A stretch of 64,000 nucleotides of DNA from Oscillospiraceae bacterium. Its GTDB lineage: Bacteria > Bacillota > Clostridia > Oscillospirales > Oscillospiraceae. Within the stretch, counting starts at the first letter, position 1. Every line of letters begins with the position of its first letter. This document shows, one piece after another, positions 10,414 to 28,350 of this stretch. The notes below the pieces were generated by a model that made no database searches, was not told where the DNA came from, and saw only the letters and a program-made list of their open reading frames with translations. The stretch is taken from NCBI GenBank assembly GCA_902787755.1, contig CADAHL010000009.1:1-64000 (forward strand), given 5' to 3'. The position numbers were made by a program, and so were the translations under genes.

Positions 10414-10762
10414 TGGTGGAGATGGGGGGAGTTGAACCCCCGTCCGAAAGCGTTTTAACAGGAACTTCTCCGGGCGCAGACGGTTGTTTGAGATTCCCGC
10501 CGTCCGACGCAAGCCGTCATGCTGCGGACTTTGGTAGCTTCATGATGCATGGCACGGGCAAAGCTTACCGTACTCACGTGCACCACTGATCGACGCCCCC
10601 TCCCGGGCCGTGGTCCTCCCGGGTGGGACGCTCACTGCTTAGGCAGCGAGAAGAACGGTGTTATCGTCGTTCTTTAATTTATAAGTTGCCCATTTTATGG
10701 ATGGTAGGCGCATCCGCCCGCTATTCCTGCCTCCACACCCCCGTCGAAACCGTTACATCCCC
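10414..10762 (-). ncRNA. ssrA: tmRNA
   Basis: A 349-nt transfer-messenger RNA that rescues stalled ribosomes with SmpB. The 5' end GGGGATG (10756-10762) pairs with CATCTCC (10418-10424), and CCA is encoded at the 3' end. The conserved GGTTTCGACGG follows the 5' end, and the T-arm GGGGGTTCAACTCCCCC is intact. The tag frame ends NDDNTVLLAA then TAA (10639-10671). The exact resume codon is not certain. It lies downstream of smpB and a cyclophilin gene on the same strand. Confidence 0.95.
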
Positions 10763-19973: not shown

Positions 19974-21057
19974 TCAGCCTTCGTCGAAATCGTCGGCGGA
20001 GACGTTCACGCCCGGCATCTCGGCGATGCGGCCGGAGGCCTGGGCGGCCTTCCTGGCCTGGGGGGACATGAGCTTGTAGGCGTTGTCCCGGATCTGCTGC
20101 TCCACCCGTTCCCGGGCTTCCTCGTTGTTTTGCAGATAGTCCTTCACGCCGTCACGGCCCTGGATGCGCTGGCCGTCCACGGTGAACCAGGCACCGGCCT
20201 TGTCGATGATCTCCAGCTTCACGCCCAGATCCACGATCTCGCCCACCCGGGAGATGCCTTCGCCGTACATGATGTCGAACTCCGCTTCCCGGAAGGGAGG
20301 GGCGACCTTGTTCTTGACGACCTTGGCTCTCGTCCGGTTGCCGATCATCTCGCCGTTGACCTTCAGCGTCTCGATACGGCGCACGTCGATGCGCACGGAG
20401 GCGTAGTATTTCAGGGCCAGACCGCCGGGCGTGGTCTCGGGGTTGCCGTACATGACGCCGATCTTCTGGCGCAGCTGGTTGATGAAGAGCCAGCCTCCGC
20501 ATGGCCTGGCTCATCAGACGGGCCAGGGCGCCCACCACCGTGTCGCCGATCTCGCCGTCCAGCTCGGACTTCGGGATCAGGGCGGCCACGGAGTCGATGA
20601 CCAGCACGTCGATGGCGCCGGAGCGGACCAGAGACTCGGCAATGTCCAGAGCCTGCTCGCCGGAATCGGGCTGGGAAATGAGCAGACTGTCGATGTCAAC
20701 GCCAAGGGCTCTGGCATAGGCGGGCTCCAGGGCGTGCTCCACGTCGATATACGCGGCCACGCCGTTGTTCCTCTGGGCGGAGGCCACGATGTGCAGGGCC
20801 AGGGTGGTCTTGCCGGAGGCCTCGGGACCGTAGATCTCCACGATCCTGCCCCGGGGAACGCCGCCGATGCCCAGCGCCAGGTCCAGAGACAGGGAGCCGG
20901 TGGACAGGGCTTCCACGTTCACGGAGATATCGTCGCCAAGGCGCATGATGGTGCCCTTGCCGTAATCCTTCTCGATCTTTGCAATGGCGGTCTCCAGAGC
21001 CTTCTTCTTGTCGGAAGAGGGGGCCACAGGGACCGGCGCTTTTTTCTTTTCTGCCAT
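19974..21057 (-). pseudogene. recA: Recombinase A gene, frameshifted by an internal deletion
   Basis: The N-terminal part reads as RecA from 21057: MRLGDD, the Walker [25 protein letters not shown], and the [10 protein letters not shown] helix. The frame then changes at about 20487. The downstream frame resumes exactly at [22 protein letters not shown] and continues to the acidic C-terminus DDFDEG at 19974. Compared with RecA proteins recalled from memory, about ten residues between AMRRLA and FINQ are missing, an out-of-frame loss of roughly 32 bases. If real, the product stops being RecA after about residue 190 and lacks loop L2. A sequencing or assembly error is possible. Confidence 0.85.
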
Positions 21058-24973: not shown

Positions 24974-25002
24974 TCGACTTTACCCGGGAAATATGGTAAA
25001 AT
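24974..25002 (+). promoter_or_regulatory. Putative promoter of the GTPase-NYN gene
   Basis: TCGACT (24974-24979), a 17-base spacer, then TAAAAT (24997-25002). It lies 32 bases before the ATG at 25035, which has an AAAGGAGGG site. Confidence 0.55.
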
Positions 25003-25034: not shown

Positions 25035-27668
25035 ATGGCCGAGGGCGCCAAACAGATCTGCGTGGGGCTGCTGGCCCATGTGGACGCCGGGAAGACCACC
25101 CTTTCCGAGGCCATGCTGTACCTCTCCGGACGCCTGAAGAAGCTGGGCCGGGTGGATCACCGGGACAGCTTTCTGGATACCCACAGCCTGGAGCGGCAGC
25201 GGGGCATCACCATCTTTTCCAAGCAGGCGGTGTTCCCTCTGGGCGACAAGACCGTGACGCTGCTGGATACGCCGGGGCATGTGGACTTTTCCGCCGAAAT
25301 GGAACGGGCGCTGGGCGTCGTGGACTGCGCGGTGCTGGTGATCAGCGGAACCGATGGCGTCCAGGCCCATACCGAGACCCTGTGGCGGCTGCTGGAGCGC
25401 CGAAGACTTCCCTGCCTGATCTTCGTGACCAAGATGGACCTGGCCCGGCAGGACAAGCAGCAGCTGATGGAGGAGCTGAAGACCCGGCTGGATCCCCGCT
25501 GCGCCGATTTCACCCTCCGGGGCGAAGCCCTGCAGGAGGAGCTGGCCATGACCGGAGAGAAGCTCATGGACGAGATCCTGTCCGGGCGCCTCCCGGATCG
25601 GACGCGCCTGTCCGGAGCGCTGCGGTCCCGAGAGCTGTTTCCGGTGTTCTTCGGTTCCGGGCTGAAGCTGGACGGTGTGGAGGCGCTGCTGGAGGCGCTG
25701 CATGATCTGGTGGAGCCGCCGGAGGACCGGGGGGCCTTTTCCGCCCGGGTCTTCAAAATCGCCCGGGATCCCCAGGGGAACCGGCTGAGCTTCCTGCGGG
25801 TCCTCTCCGGGGAACTGAAGGTTCGTTCTCCGCTGCGATACGAAGACGAGGCCGGACAGCAGCTGGAGGAGAAGATCACCCAGCTGCGGATCTATTCCGG
25901 CGCGAAATTCGAGACCACGGAGACCCTGACCGCCGGACAGCTGGGGGCGGCGCTGGGCCTGAGCGGCACCTGGCCCGGGCAGGGTCTGGGGGAGGCCTCC
26001 GATTCCGGACGCCCCGCCCTGGAGCCGGTGATGAGTTATCGGCTGCTGCTGCCTTACGGCGCGGATCCGGCCCAGTGGATGCCCCGGCTCCGGGTGCTTG
26101 GGGAGGAGGATCCCCAGCTGCATCTGCGCTGGAACGAGCGCCTGCGGCAGATCGAGCTGCGCCTAATGGGCCGGGTGCAGGCGGAGGTCTTTCGGAGCCT
26201 GGTAAAGGAACGCTTCGACCTGGACGTGGGCCTGTCGGAGGGGCGGGTCCTGTACCGGGAGACCATTGCCGACACGGTGGAGGGCGTGGGTCACTTCGAG
26301 CCTCTGCGGCACTACGCCGAGGTCCATCTGATCCTGGAGCCTCTTCCCCGGGGCAGCGGCGTGGTGGCCGACAGCGTCTGTCCCGAGGACAGCCTGGATC
26401 GGAACTGGCAGCGGCTCATCCTGGGACACATTCTGGAAAAACACCACCTGGGCGTGCTCACCGGCTCGCCTGTTACCGATGTAAAAAACACCCTGGCTGC
26501 CGGCCGGGCCCATCTGAAGCACACCGAGGGAGGGGACTTCCGGCAGGCCACCTACCGGGCCATCCGACAGGGCCTGATGAAGGCCGAGAGCGTGCTGCTG
26601 GAGCCTTGGTATTGCTTCACCCTGGAAGTACCACCGGACCAGATCGGCCGGGCCATCAGCGACGTGCGGGCGATGAACGGCGTGTTTGAGGCGCCGGAGG
26701 AGAACGGGGAACTGGTCCGGCTCCGGGGCAGCGCGCCGGTTGCCGCCATGAACGCCTATGGCGATGAGTTGATGAGTTATACCCACGGCCGGGGGCGGCT
26801 CTCGCTTCGGCCCGAGGGCTACCGGCCGGTGAAGGAGCAGGAGAAGCTGGTATCCTCCTTCGGCTACGATCCCACGGCGGACCTGGAAAATACCCCGGAT
26901 TCGGTGTTCTGCGCCCACGGCGCCGGCTTCAACGTGCGCTGGGATCAGGTGGAGCAGTATATGCACCTGGACAGCGTCCTCAGGCCCCGGACGGAGGAGC
27001 CCCCGGCCGCGCCCCGGAGAAACCTCTCCATCGACGAGCGGGAGCTGGAAGCCATCATGGAGCGGGAGTTCGGGCCCATCCGGCGGCCCCAGTACCGGGC
27101 CGGGGAGCGGAACGAGGCTCCGGTGTCCATTACCATCCGGGAGCGGAAGCAGTATGTGATCGTGGACGGCTACAACGTGATTTTTGCCTCCGAGGAGCTC
27201 AAGCGCCTGGCCTCGGAGAAGCTGGAACTGGCCCGGGGGCGGCTGATGGATCTGCTGTCCAGCTATGCGGGCTTTACGAAGTCCCAGCTGGTGCTGGTCT
27301 TCGACGGCTTCCGGACCCCGGGCAATCCGGGCTCCCGGACCGAGTATCACAACATCCATGTGGCCTTCACCCCGGATGGGGAATCCGCCGACGCCTATAT
27401 CGAGCGGCTGGTGGACGAGATCGGCAAAAACTACGACGTGCGCGTCATTACCAGCGATTCTCTGATCCGGCTCAGCGCGCTGCGCTCGGGCGTTCTGCGA
27501 ACCAGCTCCGGAGAGTTCCTGGCGGAGCTGGAGTGGACTCTGGAGCAGATCGGGGAAGTGCTGAAGAAATCCAATCAGGGAGCGCATCTGACGAAACTGA
27601 GAGATGGAACAAAACGAATTGATCCGGCGGGCGGAGGATCTGAACCGCCGCTGCCAAAGAAACAGTGA
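25035..27668 (+). CDS. EF-G/TetM-like translation GTPase fused to a C-terminal YacP/Rae1-type NYN nuclease domain
   Basis: An 877-residue two-part protein. The first ~650 residues are an EF-G/ribosomal-protection GTPase: G1 AHVDAGKTT (residues 14-22), G2 RGITI, G3 DTPGHVDF (Asp78), and G4 TKMD instead of NKxD. Domains II-V follow (FEAPEENGEL, YRPVKEQEKL). Residues ~707-860 form a YacP-like NYN domain with acidic residues in VDGYNVIF (Asp711), VFDGFRTPG, SADAYIERLVDE and VITSDSLI. In Bacillus, Rae1 (YacP) cuts mRNA in the ribosomal A site. This fusion would place a nuclease on a GTPase that binds the same site. The 3' end overlaps ylmH by 65 bases. A tetracycline-resistance role is not assumed. 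Confidence 0.88.
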   Translation: MAEGAKQICVGLLAHVDAGKTTLSEAMLYLSGRLKKLGRVDHRDSFLDTHSLERQRGITIFSKQAVFPLGDKTVTLLDTPGHVDFSAEMERALGVVDCAVLVISGTDGVQAHTETLWRLLERRRLPCLIFVTKMDLARQDKQQLMEELKTRLDPRCADFTLRGEALQEELAMTGEKLMDEILSGRLPDRTRLSGALRSRELFPVFFGSGLKLDGVEALLEALHDLVEPPEDRGAFSARVFKIARDPQGNRLSFLRVLSGELKVRSPLRYEDEAGQQLEEKITQLRIYSGAKFETTETLTAGQLGAALGLSGTWPGQGLGEASDSGRPALEPVMSYRLLLPYGADPAQWMPRLRVLGEEDPQLHLRWNERLRQIELRLMGRVQAEVFRSLVKERFDLDVGLSEGRVLYRETIADTVEGVGHFEPLRHYAEVHLILEPLPRGSGVVADSVCPEDSLDRNWQRLILGHILEKHHLGVLTGSPVTDVKNTLAAGRAHLKHTEGGDFRQATYRAIRQGLMKAESVLLEPWYCFTLEVPPDQIGRAISDVRAMNGVFEAPEENGELVRLRGSAPVAAMNAYGDELMSYTHGRGRLSLRPEGYRPVKEQEKLVSSFGYDPTADLENTPDSVFCAHGAGFNVRWDQVEQYMHLDSVLRPRTEEPPAAPRRNLSIDERELEAIMEREFGPIRRPQYRAGERNEAPVSITIRERKQYVIVDGYNVIFASEELKRLASEKLELARGRLMDLLSSYAGFTKSQLVLVFDGFRTPGNPGSRTEYHNIHVAFTPDGESADAYIERLVDEIGKNYDVRVITSDSLIRLSALRSGVLRTSSGEFLAELEWTLEQIGEVLKKSNQGAHLTKLRDGTKRIDPAGGGSEPPLPKKQ

Positions 27669-28350
27669 ACTGACCCACACCAACTTTCTCAGTCCCGCCG
27701 AGCGGGCGGAGTTGGAGGCCTGGGCCAGACATATGCCGGACTGTCGGGTGCGGTTCTTCGGCGGCGATGAAGACTGCGAGAGGACCCTGGCCTTCTTTCT
27801 GCCGGACTGGATGGAAGAGGACTCGGCCGAGCTTTCGGAGTACCTGCGGGCCATGGCCATCACGGCGTATTTTGGCACACCGGCGCACCGGGACTATCTG
27901 GGTGCTCTGCTGGGCATGGGCATCGACCGCCAGTGGCTGGGGGATATCCGGGTCATCGGGAACGAGGCCAGCATTTTCTGCCTGCCCAGCGTGCTGCGGC
28001 ATTTGCTGAGCATCGAGAAGGTGGGACGCTGCGGGGTGAAGACCCGGGAACTTGCCCTTTCCCAGGTGCCCGCGCCTGAACGGAGAGTGAAGGAAAAGCG
28101 CTTCTCAGTTCAGTCCATGCGCCTGGACGCGGTACTGGCCGGACTCTTCGATCTCAGCCGCTCCGAGGCTGCACGGCAGATCCGGGCGGGCCTGGTAACG
28201 GTCAACTACCTGGACTGCCAAAAATGCGATCTTCCCATATCCGAAGGGGATATCCTCGCCCTTCGGGGGAAGGGCAAGGCGAAGGTCACCGGCACCGGCG
28301 GCGAGAGCCGGAAGGGAAGACTGTTCATCTACGGAGAAGTATTATTGTGA
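27604..28350 (+). CDS. ylmH: YlmH-type S4 domain RNA-binding protein
   Basis: A 248-residue protein with an N-terminal YlmH domain (FLSPAERAELE, FFGGDEDCERTLAFFLPDW, YLGALLGMGIDRQWLGDI). The C-terminal S4 RNA-binding domain is FSVQSMRLDAVLAGLFDLSR then AGLVTVNY. YlmH proteins bind RNA and ribosomes and have been linked to ribosome-associated quality control. The start lies inside the 3' end of the GTPase-NYN gene, so the two are coupled, and both point to ribosome rescue. Confidence 0.88.
   Translation: MEQNELIRRAEDLNRRCQRNSELTHTNFLSPAERAELEAWARHMPDCRVRFFGGDEDCERTLAFFLPDWMEEDSAELSEYLRAMAITAYFGTPAHRDYLGALLGMGIDRQWLGDIRVIGNEASIFCLPSVLRHLLSIEKVGRCGVKTRELALSQVPAPERRVKEKRFSVQSMRLDAVLAGLFDLSRSEAARQIRAGLVTVNYLDCQKCDLPISEGDILALRGKGKAKVTGTGGESRKGRLFIYGEVLL

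Follow-up and report, generated by a model that had tools for sequence, protein, structure and literature searches.

An EF-G-like GTPase joined to a Rae1-type nuclease domain is widespread in Clostridia and rarely coexists with stand-alone Rae1

What would a bacterium do with a translation GTPase and an RNA-cutting domain on one polypeptide? The question is raised by a gene in a stretch of 64,000 nucleotides from an Oscillospiraceae bacterium (assembly GCA_902787755.1, contig CADAHL010000009.1, positions 1 to 64,000), called the window from here on. The gene is a single ATG-started frame of 877 amino acids at 25035-27668 of the forward strand. Along the chain, a five-domain GTPase similar to EF-G is followed by a C-terminal extension, a linker and a ribonuclease (RNase) domain of the NYN type known from YacP/Rae1. 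Its parts are as follows.

25035..27668, + strand: fused gene, 877 amino acids, GTPase, C-terminal extension, linker and NYN/Rae1-type RNase (frame and Pfam).
25056..25715, + strand: G domain, residues 8-227 (Pfam GTP_EFTU, 3.7e-49; placement in its own genome).
25428..25439, + strand: G4 motif TKMD, residues 132-135 (position 132 compared in 41 fusions).
25737..25970, + strand: domain II, residues 235-312 (Pfam EF-G_D2, 27.1 bits, at the cut-off of 27).
26025..26234, + strand: domain III, residues 331-400 (Pfam EFG_III, 19.5 bits, under the cut-off of 27; EF-G fold of the model).
26241..26588, + strand: domain IV, residues 403-518 (Pfam EFG_IV, 7.9e-17).
26502..26543, + strand: domain IV loop, residues 490-503 (K495 aligns with the TetM-type Pro-509, H493 with the EF-G His).
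26592..26840, + strand: domain V, residues 520-602 (Pfam EFG_C, 1.6e-18).
26841..26969, + strand: C-terminal extension, residues 603-645, with an S-V-F-C...W core (common to unfused relatives).
26970..27149, + strand: linker, residues 646-705 (largely of low confidence in the model).
27042..27074, + strand: linker motif, residues 670-680 (pattern match, shuffle control).
27156..27578, + strand: NYN/YacP (Rae1-type) RNase domain, residues 708-848 (Pfam NYN_YacP, 7.2e-37; sequence and fold match to Rae1).

The sequence-only reading of this DNA had described the gene as a one-frame fusion, with all G motifs present and the acidic residues of the nuclease intact. The three statements hold. The GTPase motifs are AHVDAGKTT (G1), RGIT, DTPGH and, from residue 132, T-K-M-D (G4). 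In an alignment of 40 fusions, A14-H-V-D17, G19-K-T-T-L23, G57-I-T59 and D78-T-P-G-H82 are invariant. The predicted structure of the whole chain has a mean predicted local distance difference test score (pLDDT) of 81 and a predicted template modelling score of 0.61. It matches EF-G structures best (top 50 matches: E <= 4.2e-45, template modelling (TM) score 0.33-0.58 over the whole model). The C-terminal extension is folded to about residue 645 in this model. The linker then has mostly low confidence, with a short helix at 668-679. Judged by its G motifs, with the switch-II His, and by the modelled five-domain fold, the 877-residue protein is a translational GTPase of the EF-G superfamily. The earlier reading had also given weight to the TKMD form of G4. 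Of 41 fusions, 34 have N at this position, six have T and one has S. T is a common variant at the first position of G4. An altered nucleotide specificity is thus a weak candidate, T being a minority variant of NKxD among the fusions (6/41).

The nuclease half resembles Rae1 closely. The NYN sequence of the window matches the Bacillus subtilis Rae1/YacP structures 5mq8 and 5mq9 (E 1e-15, about 30% identity). When the NYN domain was modelled by itself (mean pLDDT 81), the only fold matches at E <= 0.001 are B. subtilis Rae1 (5mq9 twice and 5mq8; TM score 0.75-0.77). The Rae1/YacP motifs DGYN, VFD, TAD.YIE and TSD are found in the window, with SAD standing for TAD. The catalytic-type residues D711, N714, D757, D786, E790 and D808 are present in the window and invariant in 41/41 fused and 32/32 stand-alone domains. 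Likewise, G712, Y713, F756, T779, I789, V804, T806 and G819 are invariant in all 73 domains.

Rae1 has been described as an endoribonuclease whose destabilisation of mRNAs requires translation (PMC10100781). An alternative would be that the fused NYN cuts rRNA or tRNA on the ribosome instead of mRNA, as a processing or decay factor. A role of YacP-like NYN proteins in rRNA and tRNA maturation has indeed been proposed, as cited in PMC4342817. However, Rae1 is the nearest characterised relative and acts on mRNA, and the fused NYN has its catalytic and many of its core residues. We consider an rRNA or tRNA target quite improbable.

Is the fusion genuine? An annotation artefact or a frameshift joining two genes was considered and rejected. 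The window gene and 40 relatives, which we chose from long-frame matches in other genomes, each have one unbroken fused frame. The window fusion shares 44-69% identity with the 39 relatives aligned to it. A scan of named genomes used a profile of domain IV, domain V and the extension built from 26 fusions, and gave at least 596 confirmed stretches. Among the best 80 kept, 75 are fused, with a profile and ranking that favour window-like fusions, as both of our profile searches were built from a fusion-only alignment. The remaining five comprise three loci truncated by the contig edge ahead of the NYN region (L167, L169, L176), one unfused (L189) and one split over two frames (L210). Among the named carriers are Ruminococcus flavefaciens, Intestinimonas butyriciproducens, Eubacterium sp. 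14-2 and a Lachnoclostridium. In the genome of the window and 59 relatives, an NYN match occurs in 34 of 60, each within a frame of 619-1229 codons.

The same architecture extends across the class. We surveyed 393 Clostridia genomes with completeness >=90%, scoring at most seven candidates per genome. The fusion is carried by 135 of them, about a third of the sample, spread over 25 family codes. The survey called a fusion when the frame was long enough and its genome had an NYN match; in the extracted sets, the chain was read directly. The 135 consist of 127 frames of 822-1045 codons, four cut by a contig end (G130, G228, G241, G351) and four with a broken frame (G103, G121, G246, G291). NYN_YacP matches were found in 250/393 genomes, and the GTPase, searched with the fusion-made profile at E <= 1e-60, in 163/393. 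In the 14 control genomes of the NYN search, only B. subtilis and Synechococcus elongatus gave a match. In a phylum-wide sample, searched with the GTPase profile only, the GTPase was present in 34/398 genomes.

The sequence-only reading had asked if genomes with the fusion lack a stand-alone yacP. This is the case in 134 of 135. A full stand-alone Rae1/NYN gene is present in one fusion genome, against 113/256 genomes without the fusion. The single case, G340, has a second full NYN gene of 174 codons (171.5 bits) that adjoins an rlmB-like frame (label by eye). Extra NYN matches occur in five fusion genomes. In the other four (G177, G230, G264, G426), they are fragments scoring 21.0-26.5 bits, within frames of 49-165 codons. 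Fusion-less genomes have an NYN match in 115/258; the count of 113/256 excludes G212 (at a contig edge, 313 codons) and G317 (a scrap of 22 bits). Frames of 160-226 codons are found in 112 of the 113. The remaining one, in G342 (L344), is an NYN_YacP domain within a gene of 330 codons that lacks the GTPase and has additional sequence to either side of the domain.

Fused and stand-alone members occur together in the family codes f42, f43, f47, f48 and f67. In f47, the fusion is found in seven members of genus code g56, and G110, of that same genus code, has only a stand-alone gene of 168 codons. The only stand-alone case in f48 is G265. The near-exclusion suggests that the NYN half does the job of Rae1.

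We propose that the fusion is a chromosomal and dispensable ribosome factor of Clostridia that replaces free Rae1, with a Rae1-type, ribosome-dependent mRNA cleavage delivered by the GTPase. Our confidence in this proposal is evenly balanced. When a ribosome is paused or stalled with its A site empty, the GTPase half would bind there in the manner of EF-G. GTP hydrolysis would let it depart. The NYN half, kept close by a linker of 60-99 residues, would then enter the vacated A site and cut the mRNA like Rae1. We infer the ribosome binding, the order of events and mRNA as the target. According to PMC8161019, the positions of EF-G and TetM in the A site overlap. Domain IV and Rae1 presumably share this site, so occupying it and cutting at the same time would be sterically problematic. 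For this reason, a hand-over in turn is favoured. A natural GTPase fusion that would replace Rae1 offers a direct handle on how a translation-dependent RNase reaches the right ribosomes.

The comparison of the two NYN sets points in the same direction. Rae1 itself is untethered, with 181 residues in the solved chains, and its gene is co-transcribed with yacO/rlmB. In contrast, the NYN of the fusion is tethered, the window fusion is not a stand-alone gene beside rlmB (yacO), and four columns vary. Column 769 is E in 29/32 stand-alone and 12/41 fused domains, and column 811 is E in 29/32 and 18/41. Column 812 is Q in 32/32 and 34/41, and column 822 is R in 32/32 and 24/41. Half of the stand-alone rows (16/32) come from one family code. 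The relaxation of these columns would fit a GTPase half that has taken over ribosome binding. The window domain has T769, I811, R812 and also S719, where W is found in 40/41 fusions. Because of these deviations, its nuclease may be less typical than that of most fusions.

The GTPase half could instead belong to the TetM type. The fusion would then protect against tetracycline or another A-site drug, with the GTPase half dislodging the drug and the added RNase helping by cutting RNA. The best-scoring NCBIfam model for the window is in fact the curated tet_protect model NF012153, with 381 bits, although its cut-off is 775. The EF-G model TIGR00484 gives 251 bits (cut-off 659). In 30 genomes that we chose for this comparison, the fusion outscores EF-G with the tet_protect model in most fusion genomes searched, for example 448.5 against 392.9 bits in G355. 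This fits the deep Tet link reported in PMC4342817, whose hidden Markov model survey classed such fusions as Tet. However, all the fusions listed remain under 457 bits, and in its own genome the window fusion (376.3 bits) falls below EF-G (378.7 bits). Only G192 has genes above the cut-off, two true protection genes of 852 and 819 bits (L275 and L295), and they stand beside its fusion.

The drug-site loop also differs. According to PMC8161019, Pro-509 of TetM lies in the drug site and contacts C1054. The column of Pro-509 in L275 is Lys in 39/41 fusions and 24/26 unfused GTPases (K495 in the window). Two columns before, His is found in 38/41 fusions, 26/26 unfused and 14/14 EF-G, and Tyr in the two protection proteins. 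We take this loop His to be the tip His of EF-G. The extension is another difference: profile matches to EF-G and TetM-type chains reach only to about its start, and it differs from the extension of TetM-type proteins. So, the fusion shares with TetM/TetO the EF-G-like five-domain GTPase and lacks the Pro-509 loop. With EF-G and its bacterial paralogues it shares the domain order, the fold and the loop His, yet it forms a separate tree group, far under the cut-off of the EF-G model. On these sequence features, the GTPase half is an EF-G paralogue and not a TetM-type resistance protein. The non-mobilizable typing of the replicons of two plasmid-listed fusions argues in the same sense. We regard drug protection as highly improbable.

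Public labels are affected. The fusion WP_306784676.1 of Agathobacter rectalis (L336:1628-4429) carries the NCBI label TetM/TetW/TetO/TetS family, which would favour drug protection. Nevertheless, it has a K-H-T loop where protection proteins have their own, and the label is a probable misannotation. A second labelled fusion in NCBI is named 'translation factor GTPase family protein'. Fusions without the drug-site residue should probably not count as resistance genes, and at least one is so labelled publicly.

A fusion of clostridial Tet and YacP-like NYN was reported in 2015 for ten species, with a proposal of RNase-aided tetracycline resistance (Atkinson 2015, PMC4342817). As described there, those proteins have the same architecture in Clostridiales, an EF-G-family GTPase and then NYN, and very probably belong to the same family. 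The 2015 work covers ten species classed as Tet, against the 135/393 genomes found here, with a GTPase apart from the TetM type and a near-exclusion with Rae1. Our literature search found no later study of the fusion; it did not cover the main Rae1 papers, and a 2018 paper on the distribution of Rae1 may already mention fusions. Within the searched literature, the new points of this work are how common the fusion is, its near-exclusion with Rae1, its history, its distinction from TetM-type proteins and the motif in the linker.

The linker spans 60-99 residues in 41 fusions (median 74) and is rich in charged residues. It contains a motif of the type E-L-x-x-I-F-x-x-T-Y-G, found in 40/41 fusions, in 69/75 further named fusions and in 1/7500 shuffled linkers. 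A first, narrower pattern matched 24/41 and was widened after inspection, so the 75 further loci give the fairer count. In their last 300 residues, none of them is identical to any of the 41. Among the six misses, five are off at one position (by eye). The motif is absent after the extension F-C in 26/26 unfused GTPases and from 32/32 stand-alone NYN proteins. Among the sequences compared, it was seen only in fusions.

This motif bears on a further explanation, two independent jobs on one chain. The GTPase would be a housekeeping or stress variant of EF-G, and the NYN would ride along near ribosomes. The existence of each half alone speaks for it: unfused GTPases in at least 27/393 genomes, a stand-alone NYN of the fused type in G265 and a GTPase without NYN in Bifidobacterium. 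On the other hand, the two halves are joined across 25 family codes, and the linker motif is limited to fusions. We find this explanation doubtful.

The motif could also be given a stronger role. The chain would then be a bacterial no-go-decay machine in one piece, in which the GTPase half senses and clears the stalled A site, GTP hydrolysis hands over to the Rae1 half, and the linker motif acts as a timing hinge. We judge this elaboration unlikely. By analogy, no-go decay in yeast may likewise pair a GTPase (Hbs1) with an endonuclease (Cue2) at stalled ribosomes. Hbs1 and Cue2 are separate proteins, and the nuclease fold of Cue2 is unrelated to NYN.

The trees bear on the origin of the fusion. 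The GTPase tree has 82 rows (41 fused, 25 unfused, 2 TetM-type and 14 EF-G-type), with the short or split unfused genes L322 and L323 left out. Support was measured by the Shimodaira-Hasegawa-like approximate likelihood ratio test (SH-aLRT). Fused and unfused members group together (SH-aLRT 99). Inside this group, all fused rows cluster with SH-aLRT 97, and their cluster holds a single row without NYN, from Bifidobacterium polysaccharolyticum. In the NYN tree of 73 domains, the 41 fused ones cluster together (SH-aLRT 97), and a single stand-alone domain, that of G265, falls among them. This NYN gene (L309:2787-3308) lies between manganese-exporter-like and aminoacyl-tRNA-synthetase-like frames (labels by eye), and the GTPase of the same genome falls in the unfused group. 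The stand-alone NYN of G265 is a probable fission product, judging from its place in the tree. In B. polysaccharolyticum, the GTPase encoded at L189:2529-4550 belongs to the fused group but has no NYN half. A transfer to Actinomycetota with loss of the nuclease seems likely for this gene. On the simplest history, a single fusion would have been followed by one fission and by one loss of the NYN half with transfer to Bifidobacterium; the trees leave the directions unproven.

Several points weigh against the proposal that the fusion acts as a ribosome factor in place of Rae1. The two modules would compete for one site. Our literature search found no biochemistry for any family member, and no neighbour recurs widely at 34 loci outside the genus of the window (frames >=80 residues). 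The exclusion has a Fisher p of about 1e-24, from a count uncorrected for descent. The GTPase occurs without a fused NYN in at least 27/393 genomes, a lower bound, and six of them have no NYN at all. These six have an intact unfused GTPase, so the GTPase has a role of its own. A seventh GTPase genome without NYN, G259, has its GTPase spread over two frames. Any NYN match is missing from 143/393 genomes. Four genomes of the same genus as the window (G012, G015, G026, G033; 93-99% completeness) lack both modules, so the system is dispensable. As to the trees, they were made by a quick method with SH-aLRT as the only support, and the NYN tree is based on 147 columns. An earlier GTPase tree of 68 rows had the same groups, with SH-aLRT 89 for the fused one. 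The placement of the TetM-type rows relative to the EF-G-type rows is unsure, since their long branches meet, according to a warning of the program.

The unfused GTPase and stand-alone Rae1 occur together in 21/27 genomes, against 92/229 for stand-alone Rae1 without this GTPase. We do not claim a functional link of the two, since most of the 21 belong to family code f58.

The possibility of a mobile gene was examined and rejected. A tblastn search with the NYN domain alone matched 24 of 72,556 plasmid records, of which 23 are typed as non-mobilizable and one as mobilizable, and 11 of 50,697 phage records. Four plasmid or phage records were inspected, and all four are fused; the two plasmid-listed ones are those on non-mobilizable replicons mentioned above. 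Two unannotated 'Bacteriophage sp.' records from human stool, L337 and L339, have fused frames of 878 and 890 codons, and are perhaps bacterial contigs. Twelve plasmid records of Clostridioides difficile, of about 100 kb, have annotated NYN-domain genes; the nine rows listed show 32.8% identity to the NYN of the window. As for a defence system, we found nothing beyond a weak match to LeoA (E 0.0025).

In the window, the fusion has ylmH on one side and, on the other, a divergent frame that resembles a response regulator (label by eye). Two features adjoin it.

24974..25002, + strand: promoter-like site upstream, 9/12 matches, TG ahead of the second hexamer (consensus only).
27604..28350, + strand: neighbouring gene of a ylmH-like S4 protein, which overlaps the fused gene by 65 nt.

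YlmH is able to act in ribosome-associated quality control, according to PMC11317155, and the sequence-only reading had taken this neighbour as an argument for such a role. The argument does not carry beyond the genus. The ylmH cluster adjoins the fusion in 7/7 loci of the genus of the window and in 0/34 loci elsewhere, and a ylmH partnership outside the genus is rejected. Co-transcription of the fusion and ylmH may be meaningful in this genus, yet it is no general trait.

Two other genes of the window were recorded. A tmRNA gene lies at 10414-10762 (- strand, 157.5 bits). A recA-like gene (label by eye) at 19974-21057 (- strand) extends over two frames, with open reading frames at 21057-20152 and 20453-19974. 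This split is probably an assembly or sequencing frameshift.

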